A stretch of 39,694 nt of DNA from an uncultured archaeon (GTDB lineage Archaea > Nanobdellota > Nanobdellia > Pacearchaeales > GW2011-AR1): assembly GCA_903873955.1 (NCBI GenBank), contig CAIQQL010000142.1, positions 1 through 39,694 on the forward strand, in the 5' to 3' direction. A model generated the notes under the pieces. The model saw only the letters and a program-made list of their open reading frames with translations, made no database searches and had not been told where the DNA came from. Below, in pieces: positions 6,743 to 18,621 of the stretch (position 1 is its first letter; each line of letters begins with the position of its first letter). A program made the translations under genes and the position numbers.

Positions 6743-7255
6743 CTATGGCCTTTTGACTGGTGACAAACTGGCCACATCCTGCTTGTCCACTCTTCTTTGC
6801 AGTTTAGACTTGTAGGAAAGGAGCTTGTCCTTGGAGACTACGTGGAGGTTGACTCTCCCATATACTTTCTTCCTCGGGTTATTGACAAACGTTTTGAAAA
6901 AGATCCATCTGTTTTGGGATTTATCAAATATCCTGGTTTTTTCTATCCCGCACAGGTCTATCTCCTGACCTGAATACTTCAAGGTGATAAGATCCACCTG
7001 CCAGTTATGGTCATCATATCGTTTCAGTTTTGTTTTGGCATGGGCTTTAACTAGTTCTGAGACTCTGTCAAGGTATCTTTCTTCAATGCAGATGTCAATA
7101 TCTGCAAGTTCCCTGGTTGAACCATAGATGTTGGCAGCAAATCCTCCAAAGACGACATACGGAATCTTATGGCTTTTGAGAAGATGGTCAATCCAGACAA
7201 GGGCTTTTTTTGTGTCTCTTCTGGGTCTGTGAAGCGGTCGTTTTGCTTTTTTCAT
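6743..7255 (-). CDS. Nucleotidyltransferase-fold protein (MNT-like)
   Basis: About 170 residues. The core G-G-F-A-A-N-I-Y-G-S-T-R followed by D-I-D-I-C-I (about residues 37-55) matches the pol-beta-type nucleotidyltransferase signature, a Gly-Gly helix then the metal-binding Asp-x-Asp. A later Asp (Q-V-D-L-I-T) could be the third acidic ligand. Such proteins transfer nucleotides to small molecules, RNA or proteins, or act as antitoxins; no HEPN partner is seen here. The reading frame could also start at the GTG at 7258, one codon earlier. The stop of the giant surface gene (TAG) touches this start, so translational coupling is possible although the functions look unrelated. Confidence 0.75.
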   Translation of the reverse strand: MKKAKRPLHRPRRDTKKALVWIDHLLKSHKIPYVVFGGFAANIYGSTRELADIDICIEERYLDRVSELVKAHAKTKLKRYDDHNWQVDLITLKYSGQEIDLCGIEKTRIFDKSQNRWIFFKTFVNNPRKKVYGRVNLHVVSKDKLLSYKSKLQRRVDKQDVASLSPVKRP

Positions 7256-7257
7256 CA

Positions 7258-10200
7258 CTAGATCTCATAATAAATGTTCAGGAGATGGCTTGATCCTTTG
7301 TAGTTCTCCAGGGCGATAGGGACCTTGATCTCATAGTCATAGCTTCCAAATGCCCCCTGCTGTGAGCTATTGATGGCAGCGACAAAGACAAGGTCTTCAT
7401 TTACTGCAGTACTGAACTCTCCAGTCCCGAGGTCCTGGGTAGTGTCCCATAACATTCCCGTCTTGAAGGCCGTGCTGTTGGTGCTTTTGATTGTAGGGAC
7501 ATACTGGAGGGGAGTCCCGTAGATATTATAGGTTGCGCTGGTTCGCGGAGTGCTGCCATCAATACTATAACTGTCATTCACATTGCCGGGGTAAATGGAA
7601 AGATTCAAGACCTGGTCAACTTCATTGAAGTCATTCGAAGCATTGCCATTGGATTTGGTCCTGCCAATCGCTTGTAGGCTGGCCCAACTTATGGATCGGT
7701 CCTTATTAACAAAGTAGATGTTCTTGACAGGGTCAGTACCGAAGTTGAAGAGGATGCTGCTATTGCCTAACAGTTTCATGGCAGTCGAATTGCCATAGAA
7801 GACCTGGTAGAGAAGGCTTGAATCAAAGGCGACCTGGATACTGCGGTTACCGCCGCTCCAATTATAATTTCCTGAGAGGTCATAGGCCAGGCAGTTCCAG
7901 GTATAATTGCCTGTATACAGCTGTACTGTCCAGTTGACCGTGACACTGGAAGTGCCGTTGACGTCCGTGGTCTGGACAAGGGAAAATGACTGGTTCTGGG
8001 AGTTGGTCAGATACAGGCTCAGATTACGTAAGCCAATGCTGTCTGTGGCGTTACAGCTGAACTGTTGTAATAGCGGATAGCTGGTGGTATTGGTGAGACT
8101 AGCATTTGGGATCAGGGCATTTACGATTGGTGGAGTGGTGTCGATAATCAAGGTGTCATTCCAGCCGCTCACTGCCCTGTTTCCCGCAAAATCAAATGCC
8201 TGATAGAACCATTTATAGACTCCTTCGACAAGCTGGACCACGATACCTAAGATAGTGTTTAATACCTTGGGGACAAACGTCACGGTGGTCATGTTGATGA
8301 GGGCTCCCGTCGCATTATCATAGATAAAGATGGTCGCATTTCGAATTCCGCTTCGGTCATCACTGAGATTGACCGTGAAATTGTTCGTAAGCGTATTGCT
8401 ATACTCTGTCTTAGGGCCGCTGCCTCCGCCACCACCACCTCCGCCACCTCCACTGACGGCTGAGATGATAGTCACATTTGGAGCGATGTAATCAAGGGTC
8501 ACATTACGGGTCTCGGTCCAGGCGCAGTTATTTGAGACATCGCAGGAACTGGCATTGAAGTAGTATACTCCCTGGGCAGGCGGATTGAAGCTTAAGAAAA
8601 GGTAATTGGTGCTGACATTGGTGAAATTGAGAAGGCTGCCTGAGGCGTTATAGACGTATAAGGTGACATTCCTGACTCCTGATTGCCCGTCCAATGCACT
8701 GACATTGATGAGGATGCTCGAGTTCGTGGATGAGCTGGAGTTGTCAGTAGGGTTGGCAAAGACGATGGTTGGAGCAAGAGTGTCACTCGCAGAACCATTG
8801 ATCAGCACACTGTCCATGGTCGTTAGGGTGTCAGACCCTGATTTTGCACAGTTCACCGTCCAGTTGAAGGTGCCATTTGAAATAAAGCTTCTAGTGTATT
8901 GATACAGATTGACGGTGGTGTTTTCAATCATGACATTTCCTTTAGAGTCTGAGAAATTAATGATACAAATGGAGCCACTGATGAAATTGTTGTTGCTGAT
9001 GCGTGTATAATTTGCAAAGAACGTCACTGGTTGGCCTGGGAACTTGGTTTGTCCTCCCCTGAAAACTCCCGAGTCAGTCTCATCCCAGATGGTCAGTCTA
9101 GATTTCGACCCTGTAGTGTATGAAGTAAAGTGAGTTACAGTAAACGATGCGATTCCAGTGAGATTACTATAGCTCACATTTGTACAAATGGACGTATTGC
9201 AGATAACTCCATTCATATAGACATCAGGCGTTTCGGTCCAGGGAAGATTCTTGATAAATATGGTTGCTGTGGAATTGAAACTCATGTCAACACCAAAGGT
9301 CACCGTGACATTGTTATAAGTCAGGTTGGTGTATGCGTCAAAACTTTGGTAGGTGACATTGACGCATCCGGGCCAGATGACCTTGTCATAGTCAGTTTCA
9401 AGGATAGCGGTACCATTACACACTCTTGTCAGGTCAGGCAGGCTTGACCAGTTGGTGGTGTTGCCATTAAACAGGGTTGGATCAGTAAGGGGAAGAGATT
9501 CAATAATATACCTGATGACGCGGGTTTCCGAATCATTGAAGTTCCCGCCTACATCATACGTTCGTACTCTCCAGGTGTAGGTGCCATTACCCAGGGTGTA
9601 ATTGAACGATGCATTGACTGAAGGGCTGAGCAGTGATACACCCTGAACCACGGCGCCATTGATATACAGCTCTATTCTGGTGATGTTCTTATTATCACTT
9701 GCAGAATAAGATAATGTCACAAAACCATCTCCATCAATGGAATTATTTGCCGGACTGATGAGGGTCAGGGAAGGAGGGATGATATCTATGGCCAAGGTGA
9801 TGTTTCTTTTTTCAGTGTTATTGCAATTGCCAGAGGTATCACAGGAACTTGCATTGAAAAAATAAGTCCCATTGACCAGGCCAGTCCTGTTGAGGTAGTA
9901 ATAACCTCCGTTCGCTGATGAAACGTTGATGAGTGCTCCACTGGCATTATAGACATAGATCGTGATATTGCTCACAACACCATTGTCTACTGCCATGGTA
10001 TTAATAGGAATATAAGGGGTGTATACTATTGACCCAGAATCAGGTGTGGGGGAGAGAAAAGTGATTACTGGAGGTTTTACATCGACAATGATTGTGCCAT
10101 TTGCGTTGAGATTGAAATAAGGGGTATAGGTAAGCGACCCGCTGTCAATCGCTCTGCATCTGAAGTCAACCCCTGTCTGAGGTTGTTCATTGAAGATGTT

Positions 10201-13200
10201 CCAGAGAAGGGTAGAATTGGCCCAATGAATACCAATCTCTTGCCATTGCTTTGCAGTATATGATGTGTTCACTGCTTTAACCTGGACATCATCAATCCAG
10301 CATCCTCCATAATCCGAGGTAGAATCTACCGGAGAGAGCTTGCAACCAATATCAAACGAATAATTTCCCCCATAGGTGGGAACCATGCGATAGGTTGCAT
10401 TGCCTTGAAGATACTGGTCGACATATTGGTTTCCCCATGCGCCAAGGAGTGCAGGACCCGCAATGACGGTACCATCGGTTATGTTCTTGAGCATCAGGGT
10501 GACATTCTCATAAGGTTCAGTGGAATCTGAGATCCTGAGGCGATAATGGAAGGAGACCTCTACGGAGGTAGGTGAGTCTGTGACATTCAAGGAGACATTC
10601 CACCCTCCTGAAATAGACGTGTTGGTGAGCGGTGTGTTTACGTTGAGCTCGGTGCCAAGACAATATCCGCTAACGCAGCTTTCATTGATAGTTCTTCTGC
10701 CAATTGCCTGGGGGGTAGCCGAGGTACCATAGAGATTAGGGTAGAACGTGAAACTCTGGTTGCCTGTCTCAAAGCTGGCATTGATGAGGGTAGAATTCCC
10801 TCTCTGCGGTGCAAAGAAAGCTTCAACGTGATAGGTGAGGGTGTTATTGTCCGCGTCTGTACTGCCGCTGCAGTTTAGAGAGAGAGTCGTATTGAAATAA
10901 CCGCTGCAGCTTCCCCCATTACAGGTTATGTTTGTTGGAATGGTTGGAGGGCTATTGATGATATAGAACCAAGAGGAGGAAGTGGTGTTACGGTTTCCGG
11001 TGGTATCATTGGCAAAGATGGTAATATTGAAACCCCCTAAGATTGAGGTATTCAAGCCAGTGAATTCATAGAATCTGGTTATGGCATTGTACGTGAGGGG
11101 GATGGTTTGTATGGACCCATTAGGATAGGTCAGATTCATAATGACTTTGTTGACCAGAGCATTGTCTGTGACGTTGATCTGGATGGTATAAGGCAGGCTT
11201 TGATTGATTAATGTCCCTGAAGTAGGCGCGATTATTTGTACAAGTGGTGCAAGGGTATCGATGATGGTCGTGCTTGCATTGAGGTAATAGGTTCCGATGA
11301 GTCTGCTCAGGGAGTCAAAATAGCTGATATTGGCAAAATTGGTGATGGATGTGCTATTGGAGAGGGACTCATTGATACGGACCGTGATTTTAAACGCGTT
11401 TGTTTGCCCGGAGTAGATGACAGGGTAGACCCATCTTACGGTATTTCCTTGGATGCTTCCTCCTTCACTGAGATTGATGATATCCACTCCTGCAGGCAAC
11501 GTGTCGGCAATAGTGACATTGATCGCGTCGCTTGGCGCATAATCTCTTTGTCCAAAAGCGACCGCCATATTGCCATTGGCAGGGTCTGCAATCATGGCTG
11601 TGATATAGTATACCCCATCCTTTCCTCCCTGCACAATACTGGGATAGCCATCTGAGCGATTGTTGGTGGTAAGACGTTTTATGTCCCAGGTTATGCCATT
11701 ATTGTAGGAGACTGCCATGAAGAGCTCTCTGCTGGTCGCATTGATTTGCGAGTCATATGCCCAGTTATTATCTGAGACATTGGTGGTTGAAGACCAGCCA
11801 ATATAGAGATTGCCTGCCGCATCATGGGTGATAGAAGATTCATAGGTTCTGAATACATTATTGGTGATTCCTTTGCGGTTGTTATCTAATGCATTAAACA
11901 CCAAAGGATTAGTGGTGTTGGCAAAGAAGATGTTTTGTAAGGTGTTGTTGACAGGATCAAAAGGGGACCAGGCAAAATAGAACATGCCTTCTTTGAAGTC
12001 TGCTGAGATATCCACATCTCCATAGCTATTATTGGTAAGTTGTACTCTCGAAGAAAAACCTCCAAGGGGACTGGTGGAGTTTTGGATATAAAGCTCCCCA
12101 TCTCCTGCCTCATAAGCGATATAATACATCCCTGAGTCATCTTGGAGCATAAGAGGTTGGCGCTCAGTAAATCCGGGAGTATAGGTGAGTGCATAAGGTT
12201 CGCTCCACGTAAGCCCATCATCAAATGACTGGATAAGCCAGACATCTCCGTCAGCCCAGATACTCCCATTTGAATCCATATGGGTATACACAATAAAGAG
12301 TGAACCATTTTTATCTTCAAACGCATAAGGGAAGGCATCGTGCCCGACTTCATTGGTGGCCTGTATCGGGCTTGACCAGTTGACCCCTGCATTGGTTGAA
12401 CGCACTACATAGAGGTCCTGATTTCCATTATCCACTGTTTTGAGGGTGTTTTGGTTGTAAGGGATTATCAGGGTTCCTGCTTTTGTCTTGATGATACGAG
12501 GGGCATCCTTGAAATAAGCATTGCTGACAATCGTGTGGAGATCATTGAATGCGAGAGGGACAATTCCTGGAAGGATAATCGCAGAGGTGTTGATGGTGTA
12601 GTTCAGGAATGTTCCTATCTGGACGGGGTCTGGAAAGTCTTCCTTGCTTGCGGTAAGGTTTGGTTGTACCACTTGGAACGTGGTTGTTTGGGTGTTGTTA
12701 AGGTTGCCTGCGTAGTCTTTTGCAAGTATTGTTACATTATACATCCCCAATAAGGAGGTCTTGCTGAAATATCCCTCATATCTGAGGAGGATAGGATTGT
12801 AACTGAGGTTAAAGATCTGCATTGAGCTGTCAGGAAGGGTCACATTTCCCTGTACGCTTGCAATAGGGGAGCTGTCATTGACCACGGCATAGATGAATGC
12901 GCTGCTATTGATCCCATAAAGGGTCATCTCGACAGAGACCAAAGGTACCAATGGTGGCGTCGTGTCTTGAAAGGCGAGGATTACGGTTCTGTTAGCACTT
13001 CCCCATCCAACGTTCCGGGCATAATCGAAACATTGGACGTTCCAAAGAAAACTGGTATATCCTATATTTCTTACGGTGAAGTTAGTGGTGTTCTGGAAAC
13101 CAGTCAGGTTCACAGTTTGGTTTTTGAGCCAGGTTCCCGAAGCATTGAGCCAAAGCGAGCAATTCGCAAGATTTCCATTATCGCTGATGTTTGCGACAAA

Positions 13201-16200
13201 GGTGATGTTGACGCCAAGGCTGCTGTTGTAATAATTGTCTGCAGGGCTGATCAGTGCGACGAGGGGTGGTACTGCAACGGTGGTATTTCTCGTTTCAGTG
13301 ATGTTACAGTGGTTGACAATATCACAAGCAGTCGCATTGAAGAAATACAGCCCATCCGCTAGGTTAGTGAGATTTACGTAAAGAGGAGAACTCGAACTGT
13401 TGGTCGTATTGACGAGCGCCCGGCTTGCATTATAGAGAAAGATGCTGATATTGGCAAGATTGGTGTCATTGGCGCTTATATTTGCCAGAATATAACTCCT
13501 GTTTATCGTGCTTCCGGAAAGATCGGTAGGGGTGGTGAAGTTGATGCTCGGAGTAAGTGTGTCGATGGTCACATTACGTGTCTCCGTATTATTGGTGAAC
13601 CTGCTCGTGTCATTGGCGCTCGCATTGAAGAAATACAATCCATCAGCAAGCCCTGTGAAGTTGAACAAGAAGGGAGAAGAACCAGAACTGGTGGTATTGA
13701 TCAGGGATTGACTCGAGTTATATAAATAAATCGTGATCCTGGCAAGGTTGCTATCGGTTGCCGTTACATTAATACGTAGGATGTTCCTGTTGAGGAAGGT
13801 ACTTGAGTTTTCCGTAGGGGGGGCAAATTGTACCTGTGGAGGGTAACAATCGGTCACGTTGATGAAATCATTGAGGGTGATAGTGGTTAACCCAGCACGC
13901 GTGCAACGTATATTATACGTTCGTACTCCTGTGACATTGAATGTGCGATTGAACTCATAATATGCAGATGTGGCGTTATACGCCATTGCGTTACCAGTGG
14001 AATCTGTGAAATTGACAACACACGTGGCTCCAGTAATAGTAGTACCATTCGAGTTACGGGTATAGTTTGCATAAAATCTCTCGGGATTTCCGGAACAGGC
14101 CATTCTTCCTCCCCCCGTGATGCTTGAGTCATTCTGATCCCAGATAGTAAGTCGTGCGCTTCCTGTAGCACTATAATTCGTGAAGTGCGTTACGCTAAAT
14201 GTCAAGCTTCCTGAATTGATATCATATATTGGATTGAGGCAGTCTGCTGAATCACAAATCTGGTCATTCATAAGGATATCAGGCGTTGCATCCCATCCGG
14301 TGAGGTTATAGAGTGCGATGTTGGCGCTGGAATTAAAGGTTGGATTTAGGCTTACCTCAACTGATGTGAGGTTAGTACTTATCTTAATGAAAGAGGTTAA
14401 GTTTTGATACGCGACATCAACACAGTCATTCCATTGAATCATGCCTCCTGTAACATTTTCAACCACAGCAAGTCCATCACAGACATTATGGAGGTCCGAG
14501 ACATTGCTCCAGTTAGTAGTCCTGCCTCCAAACTTGGAAGAGTCAGGTATGGCGCTGCTGTTGATGGTAAGGGTATAATTTACGGAGTAGTTGCTGTTGC
14601 TCATTAAGTCTTGGGCCCTGCAGGACCAGAGATATCTGCCATTACTTAATAGGACTCCAAAAGTTGAGGTGTTCGTTATACCCGAAACTGCTCTTGTTTG
14701 ATTCAGGTTATTATTGATGAACAGCGAGATGTTGGATAATCCCAGATTATCGGTTGCGTTGCAATTAAAACTGACATTGGCAGGGGTCCTTAAGGTGTTG
14801 TTGTCTGGGAAGAGGGGGTCTGCTGTTGGAGGAAGGGTGTCTTTTCTGGTAAATGTACGGAATTCGCTTGAGTTAGAAAGGACACCATTAAAACAAGTCA
14901 CACTCCAATTATGCGTCCCATATGTGATAGAATCAATTGAAAAATTGGTGGTCGTTCCATTGAGGGTTGTACTATTTGTAAAATTGAGGACGTTATCGAG
15001 ATAGATTGAACAACTAAATGAGGCATTGATCGTATCAGAAGCAACAAAACTGAAATTGACCTGGTCAGAATCATTGATCGTTGTTGTGTTGAGAGGGGCG
15101 AGAAGATTGATGGTGGGAGGAGTGTATGAGGTGAATGTGATATTTCTCACTTCTGTGCAGTTGGTGGATCCATACCGTTCAAGAGCACAGGCATAATAGG
15201 TCTTCGTTGTTTGTGATGAATCATCATAACTCTGGTTGATCTCTAGTTGCCAGCTGGAATTGGAAGCCGTCTGGTAAAGGGTCGAGACATACCTTAGGGC
15301 AATATCTCTCTGCGGTAAAGACCGATTATAGATAATGAGGTCATCAAGATACCCTGTATAGTTCCTGCCTGCAACTTTTCCTGAAGCGCCAACATAAAGG
15401 AGGGACGATCCTCCCCTGATTCTTCCTCCGGCACTGACTGCCCCTGCAAGGGCACCATTACTATAGATCCCAAGACCCGTATCATTATAGGTACAGAAAA
15501 TTTGAGACCAGCTGCCTCGAGGTATAGAGGTGTTGATGCTGTAAAAAGCAGTCGTAGTGTTTATGGTACATCCAATAACTGAACTGTTCAGCATCCACAT
15601 TCTGTAGCCTGCGCCAGCTACTAGGCTGTTTTCAAGAATAGTATCAAGAGGTTGATTGGCGTTTGGGTTGAGCCAAAGTCCGAATGAGAGGTTTCCACTT
15701 ATATTTAGATTAGATGATCCTCTCACATACATGATATCGTTTGCTCCATCAAAAGAAAGTGCACTACCATATCTTCCATTGGTTAAGGGTGCTGTACCGT
15801 TATATAACGTACCGCTATTGTTTGTCGCAAGATCATCAACAAAGGTGGTGTTCTCTTTTAATGCAGAGACATTGTTGAATGGCATAAGAAGCATAACCGA
15901 AGGGTCAAAAACAGAGTAATTGGTCCCGTTCCAGTTCCAGATCAGCTGGGTGAGACCAGTCTCATTTATGCTTATATTTGCAATAAAACTCTTGTTGTTG
16001 GATGAGGCTTCATCAAATGGGGTAGGATCAGTGAATTGAATGAGGGAAGGAATAACAAAGTAAATATTCAGTTCAGGCACTGCACTGGTATTTGTGTTTT
16101 CCTTTGAGGCAAAAGTGTGGGTGTAGATTGTTGTCGTTCCGGATTCCACAGCATCCTGGATTTCCCATCCATAATTTGGATACGTCCCATTGAGGAAATT

Positions 16201-18621
16201 AAGGATATCTTTGGTGACATCAAAGGTGACCCATCCTATGGCCGCCTGGGCATTGATCACATCCGTATAAGAAGCATTGGCGGGCTGCGTGGTCCAGGTA
16301 AGCCCTGTTTCAGTCCAACTGCTGTTTGATACCCTGTTAATCAGCAAGGTTCGATTAGCTGTAGATGCAACAGTCTGAAACAAGGAAAGATTTGCATAAA
16401 TGACTTGTGCATTTGCAGGTATGCCCGTGGTATTGAAAAAAAGATAAGCGTGACCTGCCTGATTTGTTCTTGCACGTACAATAAGTGTTGTTCCGGTTCC
16501 ATAATTGGTTCCTGCATTATTTTGAAGCACATACGTATCATTCATACTGGGTTGCAGCTGTTCAAGAAAACCAGGGTCTTCAGGAGTCAAAGTGAATGCA
16601 TACCTCTCTCCAGGAGAGAGTTCCATGACAAAGTCCCAGTCTCCTTCACAGATACCTGCGCTAAAATTCCAGGTTCTGCATTTGTACAGTGCATTGCCTT
16701 TTGCTACTGCTTCAACAAGGGCTGAGCTGAAATTGAGATTTGTTGGATCGATGGCATAGGTCTGTGTTGTCGCATAATCATCTAGAGTTATATTCGGTAA
16801 ATCTATGCCTAACACGACTTGTGTTGTATTCTTTTGCGTGAGATTATAAAAGGTGATATGGGTGAGATGAGAGTCTTTCTCAGAGAAGTCAACAGAAAGT
16901 GTCGCCTTTGTAGTGGAAAAAAGTGCATAGGTTTTTTGTGGGGAGGCAGGAGTAGTGCTCATGACGCCGCGCATGGTCCTGGTCACTTGTGCTGAAGGCT
17001 GGTCATCAATCTCAGGGATACTGCGGTTATTGTCATCAACCAAAGTCAGGTTTGCATCAACATAATTTCCATTCTTATCCTGTAAGACTAAAGTAAAGTT
17101 GATAAGTGCTCCAACCTCGATAGTTATATTGTTGCTTAGAAGGTTGATCCCATTTTGAATGGCGGTGAAGGATACCTGATCAACTCCCGTAAACTCAGGG
17201 GCTGCCGAGAAAGTAGCAATGGTCCCTTCTAGATCGATATGGATATGCTCTGAACCATGGGCTATAAACAAAGGTGAAGAGGTGTTATCGGTGAGATAAT
17301 CACTGAGATTAAGCGTATAATTTTCTCCAGAAGCAAAAGAAAAGTCGGGTATTTGGAAGGAGGTCAAATTACCTTCCTCATTTGAAAGATTGGAGGGTTC
17401 AGCGATACCCTTTGTGTTATTGCTTGCGTTTTGATTTCCAGGGATGAATATTGTGCTATAAGCTTCTTTTAGGGTGAGGTTATCAGAGACTAGGAGTATG
17501 CTTGCTTCATAAGCCTGACCTGGCTGTAGACTAAATTCCTCAGGGTTGAATGGCAATATCAATCGTCGTTCATTGCCCAGATAATCCTGACCGAATCCAA
17601 AAGTCGATACGTTATAGGTTGTGCTGACAATGAAGGAATTTCCTGTCACTTGCAGAGAAAGATCGCTTTCATTGAGCAATTGTGCGTCCGTATGCACAGA
17701 GTTGGGGACCAGGCTGATATTTTGTCCGTCAATGGGATAACTTGCCCGTGTGGTGATGTCTACAAACCCTGAAAGGGTCTTGATTGTAAATTGTGACGCT
17801 TCCTGGGCTGAGGCGAGGACAAACATGCTGCTCTGCAAAATTGATAGGGCTGCTTTAATGATCTTGTCCTTGAACAGAGGATACGCCAGGCTCGAAATCA
17901 TAGTGAATCTTGGCTGAGCAAGCACAAAGGAATAGAAAGGAAGGGCAAGGCCCTCCGTGATCGGAGGGACACTTGGCGATTCCTTTTGGGGTTGCTCTGC
18001 CTGCAGAGTCTCTGAGGCGGAGAATGTGAGGTCATTTGAAGGTTGATCTGTGCTTGTAGGATTTGAAGGTGGTGATGTGATAGGAGAGGTTTCAGTCGGG
18101 GTGCTTGTGTCGAGGGTATTTTGATTTGATGGGGTGCTTGACGTACTGGTATCAGAGGTATTATCCACAGGAATATAGACTCCTTTTCCTCCATCGGCAG
18201 GAGTGGAATTATCTGCAGATGGCCTGCTAAAGGTAAGGTTAAAATACACTTTGGGGTAGAGATCATCTTTTCCTAAAAACCCGAAACCCTCTCCAGACCC
18301 GGTAAGATTTTTCCCTAGAATGAAATAGCTTGCATTCATGAATGAGATATTCTCGTTATATTCCCGTAGTTCGGTCAATGGGATGGTCTTGGTGAGGTTA
18401 TTTACCGTGAGTAGGACCATAGCCTGAGAGGGGATGAACTCACCTTCGTGCAAGGAAAAGGCAAGGTAAATGGGCTCTGGGCCGCTTGTTGCAATACTTA
18501 CCTTGGGGAGAAGGAGGAATAAGCAGATAAAACTAAAAAATACGATTAACCCTAAGCGCAGTTTGGCTTCATCCCCTTTTAGACATTTAGGAAAATATAC
18601 TCCTTCTTTCAAATAATTCAT
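7258..18621 (-). CDS. Giant secreted mosaic surface protein (adhesin/fibre), 3787 aa
   Basis: A single uninterrupted frame of 3787 codons. After a 20-residue charged start there is one hydrophobic segment (about 21-45), a signal peptide or signal anchor. Order of parts: Ser/Thr/Pro-rich linker (about 133-225); beta-rich region with a cadherin-like piece (about 425-500); DNRLRE domain (about 687-850); LamG/concanavalin-like domain (about 925-1110); a long array of Ig-like domains; DUF11 halves at about 1988-2010 and 2359-2440 with an Asp-box propeller between them; more Ig-like domains; a ten-glycine linker (about 3390-3400); and a C-terminal domain (about 3600-3787) shared with the small secreted proteins at 20-22.5 kb. 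N-x-S/T sequons are very dense, suggesting N-glycosylation. No C-terminal anchor is seen. It is probably an extended adhesin or appendage; the ligand is unknown. Confidence 0.9.
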   Translation of the reverse strand: MNYLKEGVYFPKCLKGDEAKLRLGLIVFFSFICLFLLLPKVSIATSGPEPIYLAFSLHEGEFIPSQAMVLLTVNNLTKTIPLTELREYNENISFMNASYFILGKNLTGSGEGFGFLGKDDLYPKVYFNLTFSRPSADNSTPADGGKGVYIPVDNTSDTSTSSTPSNQNTLDTSTPTETSPITSPPSNPTSTDQPSNDLTFSASETLQAEQPQKESPSVPPITEGLALPFYSFVLAQPRFTMISSLAYPLFKDKIIKAALSILQSSMFVLASAQEASQFTIKTLSGFVDITTRASYPIDGQNISLVPNSVHTDAQLLNESDLSLQVTGNSFIVSTTYNVSTFGFGQDYLGNERRLILPFNPEEFSLQPGQAYEASILLVSDNLTLKEAYSTIFIPGNQNASNNTKGIAEPSNLSNEEGNLTSFQIPDFSFASGENYTLNLSDYLTDNTSSPLFIAHGSEHIHIDLEGTIATFSAAPEFTGVDQVSFTAIQNGINLLSNNITIEVGALINFTLVLQDKNGNYVDANLTLVDDNNRSIPEIDDQPSAQVTRTMRGVMSTTPASPQKTYALFSTTKATLSVDFSEKDSHLTHITFYNLTQKNTTQVVLGIDLPNITLDDYATTQTYAIDPTNLNFSSALVEAVAKGNALYKCRTWNFSAGICEGDWDFVMELSPGERYAFTLTPEDPGFLEQLQPSMNDTYVLQNNAGTNYGTGTTLIVRARTNQAGHAYLFFNTTGIPANAQVIYANLSLFQTVASTANRTLLINRVSNSSWTETGLTWTTQPANASYTDVINAQAAIGWVTFDVTKDILNFLNGTYPNYGWEIQDAVESGTTTIYTHTFASKENTNTSAVPELNIYFVIPSLIQFTDPTPFDEASSNNKSFIANISINETGLTQLIWNWNGTNYSVFDPSVMLLMPFNNVSALKENTTFVDDLATNNSGTLYNGTAPLTNGRYGSALSFDGANDIMYVRGSSNLNISGNLSFGLWLNPNANQPLDTILENSLVAGAGYRMWMLNSSVIGCTINTTTAFYSINTSIPRGSWSQIFCTYNDTGLGIYSNGALAGAVSAGGRIRGGSSLLYVGASGKVAGRNYTGYLDDLIIYNRSLPQRDIALRYVSTLYQTASNSSWQLEINQSYDDSSQTTKTYYACALERYGSTNCTEVRNITFTSYTPPTINLLAPLNTTTINDSDQVNFSFVASDTINASFSCSIYLDNVLNFTNSTTLNGTTTNFSIDSITYGTHNWSVTCFNGVLSNSSEFRTFTRKDTLPPTADPLFPDNNTLRTPANVSFNCNATDNLGLSNISLFINNNLNQTRAVSGITNTSTFGVLLSNGRYLWSCRAQDLMSNSNYSVNYTLTINSSAIPDSSKFGGRTTNWSNVSDLHNVCDGLAVVENVTGGMIQWNDCVDVAYQNLTSFIKISTNLTSVEVSLNPTFNSSANIALYNLTGWDATPDILMNDQICDSADCLNPIYDINSGSLTFSVTHFTNYSATGSARLTIWDQNDSSITGGGRMACSGNPERFYANYTRNSNGTTITGATCVVNFTDSTGNAMAYNATSAYYEFNRTFNVTGVRTYNIRCTRAGLTTITLNDFINVTDCYPPQVQFAPPTENSSTFLNRNILRINVTATDSNLARITIYLYNSSQSLINTTSSGSSPFLFNFTGLADGLYFFNASANDTSRFTNNTETRNVTIDTLTPSINFTTPTDLSGSTINRSYILANISANDTNLANISIFLYNASRALVNTTNSSSSPLYVNLTNLADGLYFFNATACDIVNHCNITETRNTTVAVPPLVALISPADNYYNSSLGVNITFVANISDNGNLANCSLWLNASGTWLKNQTVNLTGFQNTTNFTVRNIGYTSFLWNVQCFDYARNVGWGSANRTVILAFQDTTPPLVPLVSVEMTLYGINSSAFIYAVVNDSSPIASVQGNVTLPDSSMQIFNLSYNPILLRYEGYFSKTSLLGMYNVTILAKDYAGNLNNTQTTTFQVVQPNLTASKEDFPDPVQIGTFLNYTINTSAIILPGIVPLAFNDLHTIVSNAYFKDAPRIIKTKAGTLIIPYNQNTLKTVDNGNQDLYVVRSTNAGVNWSSPIQATNEVGHDAFPYAFEDKNGSLFIVYTHMDSNGSIWADGDVWLIQSFDDGLTWSEPYALTYTPGFTERQPLMLQDDSGMYYIAYEAGDGELYIQNSTSPLGGFSSRVQLTNNSYGDVDISADFKEGMFYFAWSPFDPVNNTLQNIFFANTTNPLVFNALDNNRKGITNNVFRTYESSITHDAAGNLYIGWSSTTNVSDNNWAYDSQINATSRELFMAVSYNNGITWDIKRLTTNNRSDGYPSIVQGGKDGVYYITAMIADPANGNMAVAFGQRDYAPSDAINVTIADTLPAGVDIINLSEGGSIQGNTVRWVYPVIYSGQTNAFKITVRINESLSNSTSITNFANISYFDSLSRLIGTYYLNASTTIIDTLAPLVQIIAPTSGTLINQSLPYTIQINVTDNALVNKVIMNLTYPNGSIQTIPLTYNAITRFYEFTGLNTSILGGFNITIFANDTTGNRNTTSSSWFYIINSPPTIPTNITCNGGSCSGYFNTTLSLNCSGSTDADNNTLTYHVEAFFAPQRGNSTLINASFETGNQSFTFYPNLYGTSATPQAIGRRTINESCVSGYCLGTELNVNTPLTNTSISGGWNVSLNVTDSPTSVEVSFHYRLRISDSTEPYENVTLMLKNITDGTVIAGPALLGAWGNQYVDQYLQGNATYRMVPTYGGNYSFDIGCKLSPVDSTSDYGGCWIDDVQVKAVNTSYTAKQWQEIGIHWANSTLLWNIFNEQPQTGVDFRCRAIDSGSLTYTPYFNLNANGTIIVDVKPPVITFLSPTPDSGSIVYTPYIPINTMAVDNGVVSNITIYVYNASGALINVSSANGGYYYLNRTGLVNGTYFFNASSCDTSGNCNNTEKRNITLAIDIIPPSLTLISPANNSIDGDGFVTLSYSASDNKNITRIELYINGAVVQGVSLLSPSVNASFNYTLGNGTYTWRVRTYDVGGNFNDSETRVIRYIIESLPLTDPTLFNGNTTNWSSLPDLTRVCNGTAILETDYDKVIWPGCVNVTYQSFDAYTNLTYNNVTVTFGVDMSFNSTATIFIKNLPWTETPDVYMNGVICNTSICTNVSYSNLTGIASFTVTHFTSYTTGSKSRLTIWDETDSGVFRGGQTKFPGQPVTFFANYTRISNNNFISGSICIINFSDSKGNVMIENTTVNLYQYTRSFISNGTFNWTVNCAKSGSDTLTTMDSVLINGSASDTLAPTIVFANPTDNSSSSTNSSILINVSALDGQSGVRNVTLYVYNASGSLLNFTNVSTNYLFLSFNPPAQGVYYFNASSCDVSNNCAWTETRNVTLDYIAPNVTIISAVSGGGGGGGGGGSGPKTEYSNTLTNNFTVNLSDDRSGIRNATIFIYDNATGALINMTTVTFVPKVLNTILGIVVQLVEGVYKWFYQAFDFAGNRAVSGWNDTLIIDTTPPIVNALIPNASLTNTTSYPLLQQFSCNATDSIGLRNLSLYLTNSQNQSFSLVQTTDVNGTSSVTVNWTVQLYTGNYTWNCLAYDLSGNYNWSGGNRSIQVAFDSSLLYQVFYGNSTAMKLLGNSSILFNFGTDPVKNIYFVNKDRSISWASLQAIGRTKSNGNASNDFNEVDQVLNLSIYPGNVNDSYSIDGSTPRTSATYNIYGTPLQYVPTIKSTNSTAFKTGMLWDTTQDLGTGEFSTAVNEDLVFVAAINSSQQGAFGSYDYEIKVPIALENYKGSSHLLNIYYEI
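7261..7822 (-). other. C-terminal domain of the giant protein, shared with the small surface proteins
   Basis: Residues about 3600-3787 align by eye, end to end, with the mature small proteins encoded at 20224, 21031 and 21835. Matching points are F-Y-G-N-S-T-A (Y-F-G-N-I-T-A), G-N-S-S-I-L-F-N-F-G (G-N-G-S-A-V-F-Y-D-F-G), a central W, and the ending S-Y-D-Y-E-I-K-V-P with a final aromatic Y-Y. This is homology by pattern reading, not by a profile search. Confidence 0.7.
8790..9485 (-). repeat. Duplicated ~233-aa cassette in the giant gene, copy 2
   Basis: It encodes residues about 3046-3278. It shares with copy 1 the landmarks T-T-N-W-S, V-C-N-G, C-V-N-V-T-Y-Q, P-D-V-Y-M-N-G, F-T-V-T-H-F-T-S-Y, S-R-L-T-I-W-D-E, F-F-A-N-Y-T-R and C-I-I-N-F-S-D-S. 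The protein similarity is much clearer than the DNA similarity, so the duplication is old. Confidence 0.8.
11550..12505 (-). other. Asp-box (sialidase-like) beta-propeller insert of the giant protein
   Basis: Residues about 2040-2357 contain three Asp-box motifs: S-T-N-A-G-V-N-W, S-F-D-D-G-L-T-W and S-Y-N-N-G-I-T-W. They are spaced as in BNR/sialidase-type propellers and preceded by strands such as G-T-L-I-I-P-Y and G-S-L-F-I-V-Y-T. The catalytic Arg triad of true sialidases cannot be confirmed, so I call it a binding or structural propeller. Confidence 0.72.
13846..14546 (-). repeat. Duplicated ~233-aa cassette in the giant gene, copy 1
   Basis: It encodes residues about 1359-1592. Landmarks in the same order as copy 2: T-T-N-W-S, V-C-D-G, C-V-D-V-A-Y-Q, P-D-I-L-M-N-D, F-S-V-T-H-F-T-N-Y, S-A-R-L-T-I-W-D-Q, F-Y-A-N-Y-T-R and C-V-V-N-F-T-D-S. 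Both copies follow an Ig-like domain and are followed by one, so the duplicated unit may be larger. Confidence 0.8.

Follow-up and report, generated by a model that had tools for sequence, protein, structure and literature searches.

The archaeal DNA analysed here (the window, 39,694 nucleotides) encodes a giant protein in which motifs characteristic of a DUF11 domain appear on both sides of an Asp-box beta-propeller, raising the question of whether the propeller lies within a single DUF11 domain and, if so, how the two parts of that domain are held together. The organisation of the region is as follows.

7258..18621, minus strand: giant surface-protein ORF, 3787 aa, with Pfam matches to CBM96, Laminin_G_3 and five copies of Big_7
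12673..12966, minus strand: upstream Ig-like domain (aa 1886-1983), separate and complete, homologous in 3/3 nested proteins and with its own strands in the first structural model
12586..12672, minus strand: DUF11 N-half (aa 1984-2012), strands 1-2, carrying K1993; identified by DUF11 profile and substitution control, with pLDDT 95 at residues 11-30 of the second model
11545..12540, minus strand: inserted six-bladed Asp-box propeller (sialidase-type, BNR_2), strands aa 2028-2359; identified by BNR_2 and GH33 profile matches and Foldseek
11254..11535, minus strand: DUF11 C-half (aa 2363-2456), carrying D2373 and N2428; identified by Pfam, DUF11 profile and substitution control
10951..11253, minus strand: downstream Ig-like domain (aa 2457-2557), separate, homologous in 3/3 nested proteins and with strands in the first model

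The N-terminus of the 3787-aa product has a hydrophobic segment resembling a signal sequence. Upstream of the region of interest are CBM96/DNRLRE and laminin-G-like carbohydrate-binding modules (aa 693-1108; 15298-16545, minus strand). The protein contains 236 N-x-S/T sequons, whereas its composition predicts approximately 84 and shuffled versions reach at most 105; it is therefore probably very heavily N-glycosylated. A 171-aa ORF with a GTG start (6743-7258, minus strand) has a 1-base overlap with the stop codon of the giant gene, and its sole match is a sub-threshold one to the nucleotidyltransferase family PF14907. A 168-aa ORF in another frame within the propeller region (11886-12392, minus strand) is probably spurious.

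A DUF11 domain interrupted by a propeller

The motifs quoted in the initial annotation on either side of the propeller are exact, and lie within aa 1984-2456. They include KEDFPDPVQIGTFLNYTI (aa 1993-2010; 12592-12645) on the N-terminal side, and YAPSDAINVTIADTLPAG (aa 2361-2378; 11488-11541), GNTVRW (aa 2392-2397) and FKITVR (aa 2410-2415) on the C-terminal side. The DUF11 domain, the only copy in the protein, is interrupted after strand 2 by about 350 residues of propeller and restarts at aa 2363. Against the Pfam DUF11 model (PF01345, cut-off 24.6 bits) the C-half alone scores 40.8 bits and the joined flanks score 46.8 bits (profile positions 11-101), and a six-frame search of the source genome gives 39.9 bits at the C-half; the N-half alone has no Pfam DUF11 match. 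DUF11 is not found when the whole 3787-aa protein is scanned with Pfam, so a split domain of this type is easily overlooked, and counts of DUF11 domains miss the N-halves of split copies.

These Pfam scores, in which only the C-half exceeds the cut-off by itself, could be read as a shortened stand-alone DUF11 domain preceded by a linker or the last part of the upstream Ig domain, with no nesting at all. To this may be added that a structural model built from a poor alignment did not form the DUF11 domain (see below). We consider this reading very unlikely in light of searches with a DUF11 profile of our own, constructed from 68 uninterrupted archaeal copies from other genomes and including no nested sequence. 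The N-half (aa 1985-2012) matches profile positions 4-31 with 18.6 bits and the C-half (aa 2365-2437) matches positions 38-108 with 36.1 bits; these are the two best matches in the protein, with all others scoring below zero. The N-half, as the second-best match, thus fits exactly the columns that the C-half lacks; the two do not overlap, and the uncovered columns correspond to the loop only. The same division is seen in two nested homologues, with scores of 19.5 and 24.6 bits in L015, and 20.1 and 37.1 bits in L051. The loop at the split site is 5-6 residues long in all 68 uninterrupted copies, in agreement with the short loop that had been supposed for ordinary DUF11 domains.

As a control, the N-half was exchanged in turn for each of the other segments of equal length in the protein, and the joined halves were rescored. 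The real joined halves score 70.8 bits, compared to 44.4 bits for the C-half alone and 54.1 bits for the best substitute, and none of the 3206 substitutes scores as high; in the two homologues the real score is likewise reached by 0 of 1400 and 0 of 1629 substitutes. Moreover, the upstream Ig domain does not need the N-half to be complete. An arrangement of two complete domains flanking the propeller, which the initial annotation had named as the outcome contradicting its proposal, was not seen and was dropped. These comparisons, together with the uninterrupted relatives described below, leave little doubt that the propeller is nested within one loop of a single DUF11 domain, as had been proposed.

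Structure prediction, suggested previously as a check, gave results that depend on the alignment. A first AlphaFold (AF2) run with a two-row alignment modelled the propeller, mostly at pLDDT 60-89, but resolved neither DUF11 half, for which values were mostly 20-35. The alignment for a second model included six rows of intact DUF11 copies, taken from a Methanosarcinales protein and aligned to both halves, and yielded a mean pLDDT of 79.6 and a pTM of 0.71, with six blades and with values around or over 90 across most of the two halves. The strands of an Ig-like CnaA sandwich are confident only with these rows present, and as the second alignment presupposes that the halves are DUF11, the model demonstrates compatibility with nesting and is not independent proof of it. 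Viral DUF11 sequences were sought for a deeper alignment, yielding one weak locus and pattern matches that reflect chance. In propellers of this fold the strand preceding the first blade usually pairs with the last blade. Judging from strand order, aa 2028-2035 probably form this strand and pair with the last blade, which ends at aa 2359. The first and last strands would then close the same blade and the chain would enter and leave the propeller at adjacent points, so that it could sit in a loop.

Conservation and distribution of the nested unit

The search for the same nesting in other archaeal proteins that had been recommended recovered two homologues with the same split. One, in genome G355, was found in a search of the phylum and has 45% identity across the whole 473-residue unit; this genome is recorded as that of an uncultured archaeon sampled from sediment, and shares its class with the source genome of the window. 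The other, in G428, is 50% identical to the window unit. The N-half, propeller and C-half are kept in all three nested proteins, which represent three different archaeal families, and the similarity extends into the neighbouring Ig domains (window aa 1654-2951 against G355, and 1888-2977 against G428). An uninterrupted relative (L016, in genome G106) shares 72% identity over the N-half, with the C-half following directly.

These homologues bear on a more trivial explanation, in which an error of assembly or binning placed a piece of a propeller gene in frame inside a DUF11 gene. The source genome is a fragmented draft of 154 contigs, and a search of 200 genomes of the window's order recovered the unit in none besides the source genome. 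However, the same in-frame arrangement with diverged sequence is present in two independent genomes of other families, and the G+C content is level throughout the giant gene. We regard a chimera as having almost no probability, and the two homologues with the same split rule it out as the source of the architecture.

A search with the DUF11 profile of 241 genomes of the order containing G355 gave about 150 matches in 47 genomes, among which the only split pairs are those of the two nested proteins. The nested unit was not found in the 56 genomes nearest to the source genome, the sampled genomes of the class gave no further case, and no relatives were seen in IMG/VR or in phage or plasmid collections. 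Its distribution is patchy, and fits either transfer or repeated loss.

Several other candidates were set aside. A Methanosarcinales protein from a contig scan is not nested and consists of uninterrupted tandem DUF11 domains, and a match to the N-half in G440 is an ordinary DUF11. L054, L056 and L062 have remote propellers that do not lie within another domain; in L054 and L056, from other archaea, a remote Asp-box propeller is followed by an apparent parallel beta-helix, a different architecture.

The sialidase-type head

The initial annotation had described an Asp-box beta-propeller of about 345 residues, and this was confirmed. Three Asp-box-like motifs lie between the DUF11 halves, at aa 2075, 2132 and 2305, and the region matches BNR_2 (PF13088) with 35.3 bits when excised and 34.2 bits in context, above the Pfam cut-off of 31.4. 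Profile searches and Foldseek group it with GH33 sialidases and GH93 arabinanases; a Pfam match to GH43 (31.4 bits) is below the cut-off of 32.2. The segment thus resembles the sialidase superfamily (BNR_2, GH33, GH93) in its Asp boxes, its six-blade strand pattern and its above-threshold profile match. It differs in sitting inside another domain and in having an aspartate in place of the first arginine of the catalytic triad.

12505..12507, minus strand: Asp 2039, within KD[AS]P, aligned with the (F/Y)RIP arginine of sialidases

All three nested proteins have Asp at this position, which in GH33 sialidases holds the (F/Y)RIP arginine; the first arginine of the GH33 triad is thus absent, and the head is unlikely to be a normal sialidase. 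Acidic residues conserved in all three proteins open five of the six blades (D2039, D2095, D2204, E2261 and D2324), suggesting that there is a conserved pocket. Most likely, the head is a module that binds or processes glycans and not a true sialidase. A binding role is plausible, and the head may, as the initial annotation supposed, be held out from a rod.

An active exo-glycosidase displayed at the surface would be compatible with nesting, and is favoured both by the acids at the blade starts and by the resemblance, in profile and in fold, to GH33 sialidases and GH93 arabinanases. The absence of the (F/Y)RIP arginine from every nested protein argues against it, as do the sub-threshold GH43 score and the restriction of sequence likeness to sialidases mostly to blades 1-2. 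We therefore think it unlikely that the propeller is an enzyme of this kind and not a binding head.

A predicted isopeptide triad and a probable locked collar

The structure of DUF11 has been solved and the domain renamed CLIPPER, and it contains an intramolecular isopeptide bond between Lys715 and Asn806, with Asp748 participating, that confers resistance to heat and protease (PMC12617251). The equivalent residues in the window protein are predicted to be the following.

12643..12645, minus strand: Lys 1993, predicted isopeptide lysine; K in 68/68 uninterrupted copies and 3/3 nested proteins, with its role inferred from PMC12617251
11503..11505, minus strand: Asp 2373, predicted to be the acid that catalyses the isopeptide bond; E/D in 68/68 uninterrupted copies and D in 3/3 nested proteins
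11338..11340, minus strand: Asn 2428, predicted isopeptide asparagine; N in 67/68 uninterrupted copies and 3/3 nested proteins

The assignment of Asn2428 is based on conservation together with a weak direct alignment to the solved DUF11 structure 9IFR (E 5e-4, using a typed consensus), which places the Asn column only to within a few residues and puts the Asp one residue off its published number. Along the chain, K1993 of the N-half is followed by the propeller and then by D2373 and N2428, both in the C-half. With the lysine in one half and the aspartate and asparagine in the other, a bond would staple the halves together across the propeller, enclosing 435 residues. We consider a covalent K1993-N2428 lock to be likely. 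The triad common to the two halves did not feature in the initial annotation, and is most likely what makes the design work.

Some DUF11 domains are without the isopeptide bond (PMC12617251), and the two halves here could similarly fold together non-covalently, with the triad residues retained for packing only. This seems doubtful, as all three residues are conserved in each of the nested proteins at 45-50% identity, and N2428 lies outside any glycosylation sequon.

Taking these observations together, the explanation that we prefer, and consider likely overall, is that this archaeon, which has a small genome, makes a giant adhesin-like surface protein with a split DUF11 domain closed, and probably isopeptide-locked, around a propeller head. 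The DUF11/CLIPPER loop between strands 2 and 3 is replaced by a whole six-bladed propeller of sialidase fold, and the two DUF11 halves would close into a single sandwich locked by spontaneous formation of the K1993-N2428 bond with the assistance of D2373. The bond would make aa 1993-2428 a covalently closed loop and would therefore place the propeller outside the load path, with tension along the protein running through the DUF11 collar and bypassing the head.

The nested-head architecture is not new in principle, and the same logic is known in bacterial tip adhesins. In RrgA, domain D2 is in two halves around the head domain D3, locked by Lys191-Asn695 (PMC5333627); in Mfa5, a CnaA-like domain with a Lys111-Asn518 bond accommodates a vWF domain between its strands B and C (PMC7835359); and in GBS104 the split domain comprises residues 137-211 and 587-717 (PMC12617251). 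As in these three proteins, the head of the window protein lies between a Lys-bearing strand pair and the Asp/Asn-bearing remainder of the domain. In contrast, their heads are von Willebrand A domains, their collars are CnaA-like and their carriers are fimbrial tip pilins, whereas the window protein has a sialidase-type propeller, a DUF11 collar and a giant archaeal carrier; no VWA domain was found in it by Pfam, BNR_2 being found instead. The likeness is likely one of convergence. That an isopeptide-locked DUF11 collar carries the propeller as a closed loop off the load path, and arose independently of the bacterial pilus adhesins, is a composite proposal that we favour with some reserve.

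No published case of a propeller as the head in a split isopeptide domain was found in the open-access literature, and if correct, this proposal would add both a new type of head and a new collar family to the RrgA-style design. Should the bond form, a locked head-in-collar would be a general solution, used also with a propeller in archaea and not only with the integrin-like heads of bacterial pilus tips, and would offer a direct and testable way into the question of how uncultured archaea with small genomes may adhere to partners or surfaces. In SpyRing and Jo-In, a protein placed between two parts of an isopeptide domain is thereby closed into a loop (PMC4748275, PMC5333627). Those systems are engineered, whereas the window protein would, if the bond forms, be their natural counterpart, with a propeller.

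In relation to other DUF11/CLIPPER domains (PF01345), both halves match the profile and the K, D and N residues of the triad are present, but DUF11 is usually uninterrupted and often tandem, whereas the window copy is single and interrupted. The source genome has a second gene with a DUF11-family match (L002, G000:C139:6665-6988; 31.8 bits), whose product lacks a PDPV motif and has a hydrophobic C-terminal segment. In a related archaeon, two giant ORFs of 4884 and 6115 aa (L022 and G129:C19) have DUF11 matches, the first containing at least 15 copies in tandem.
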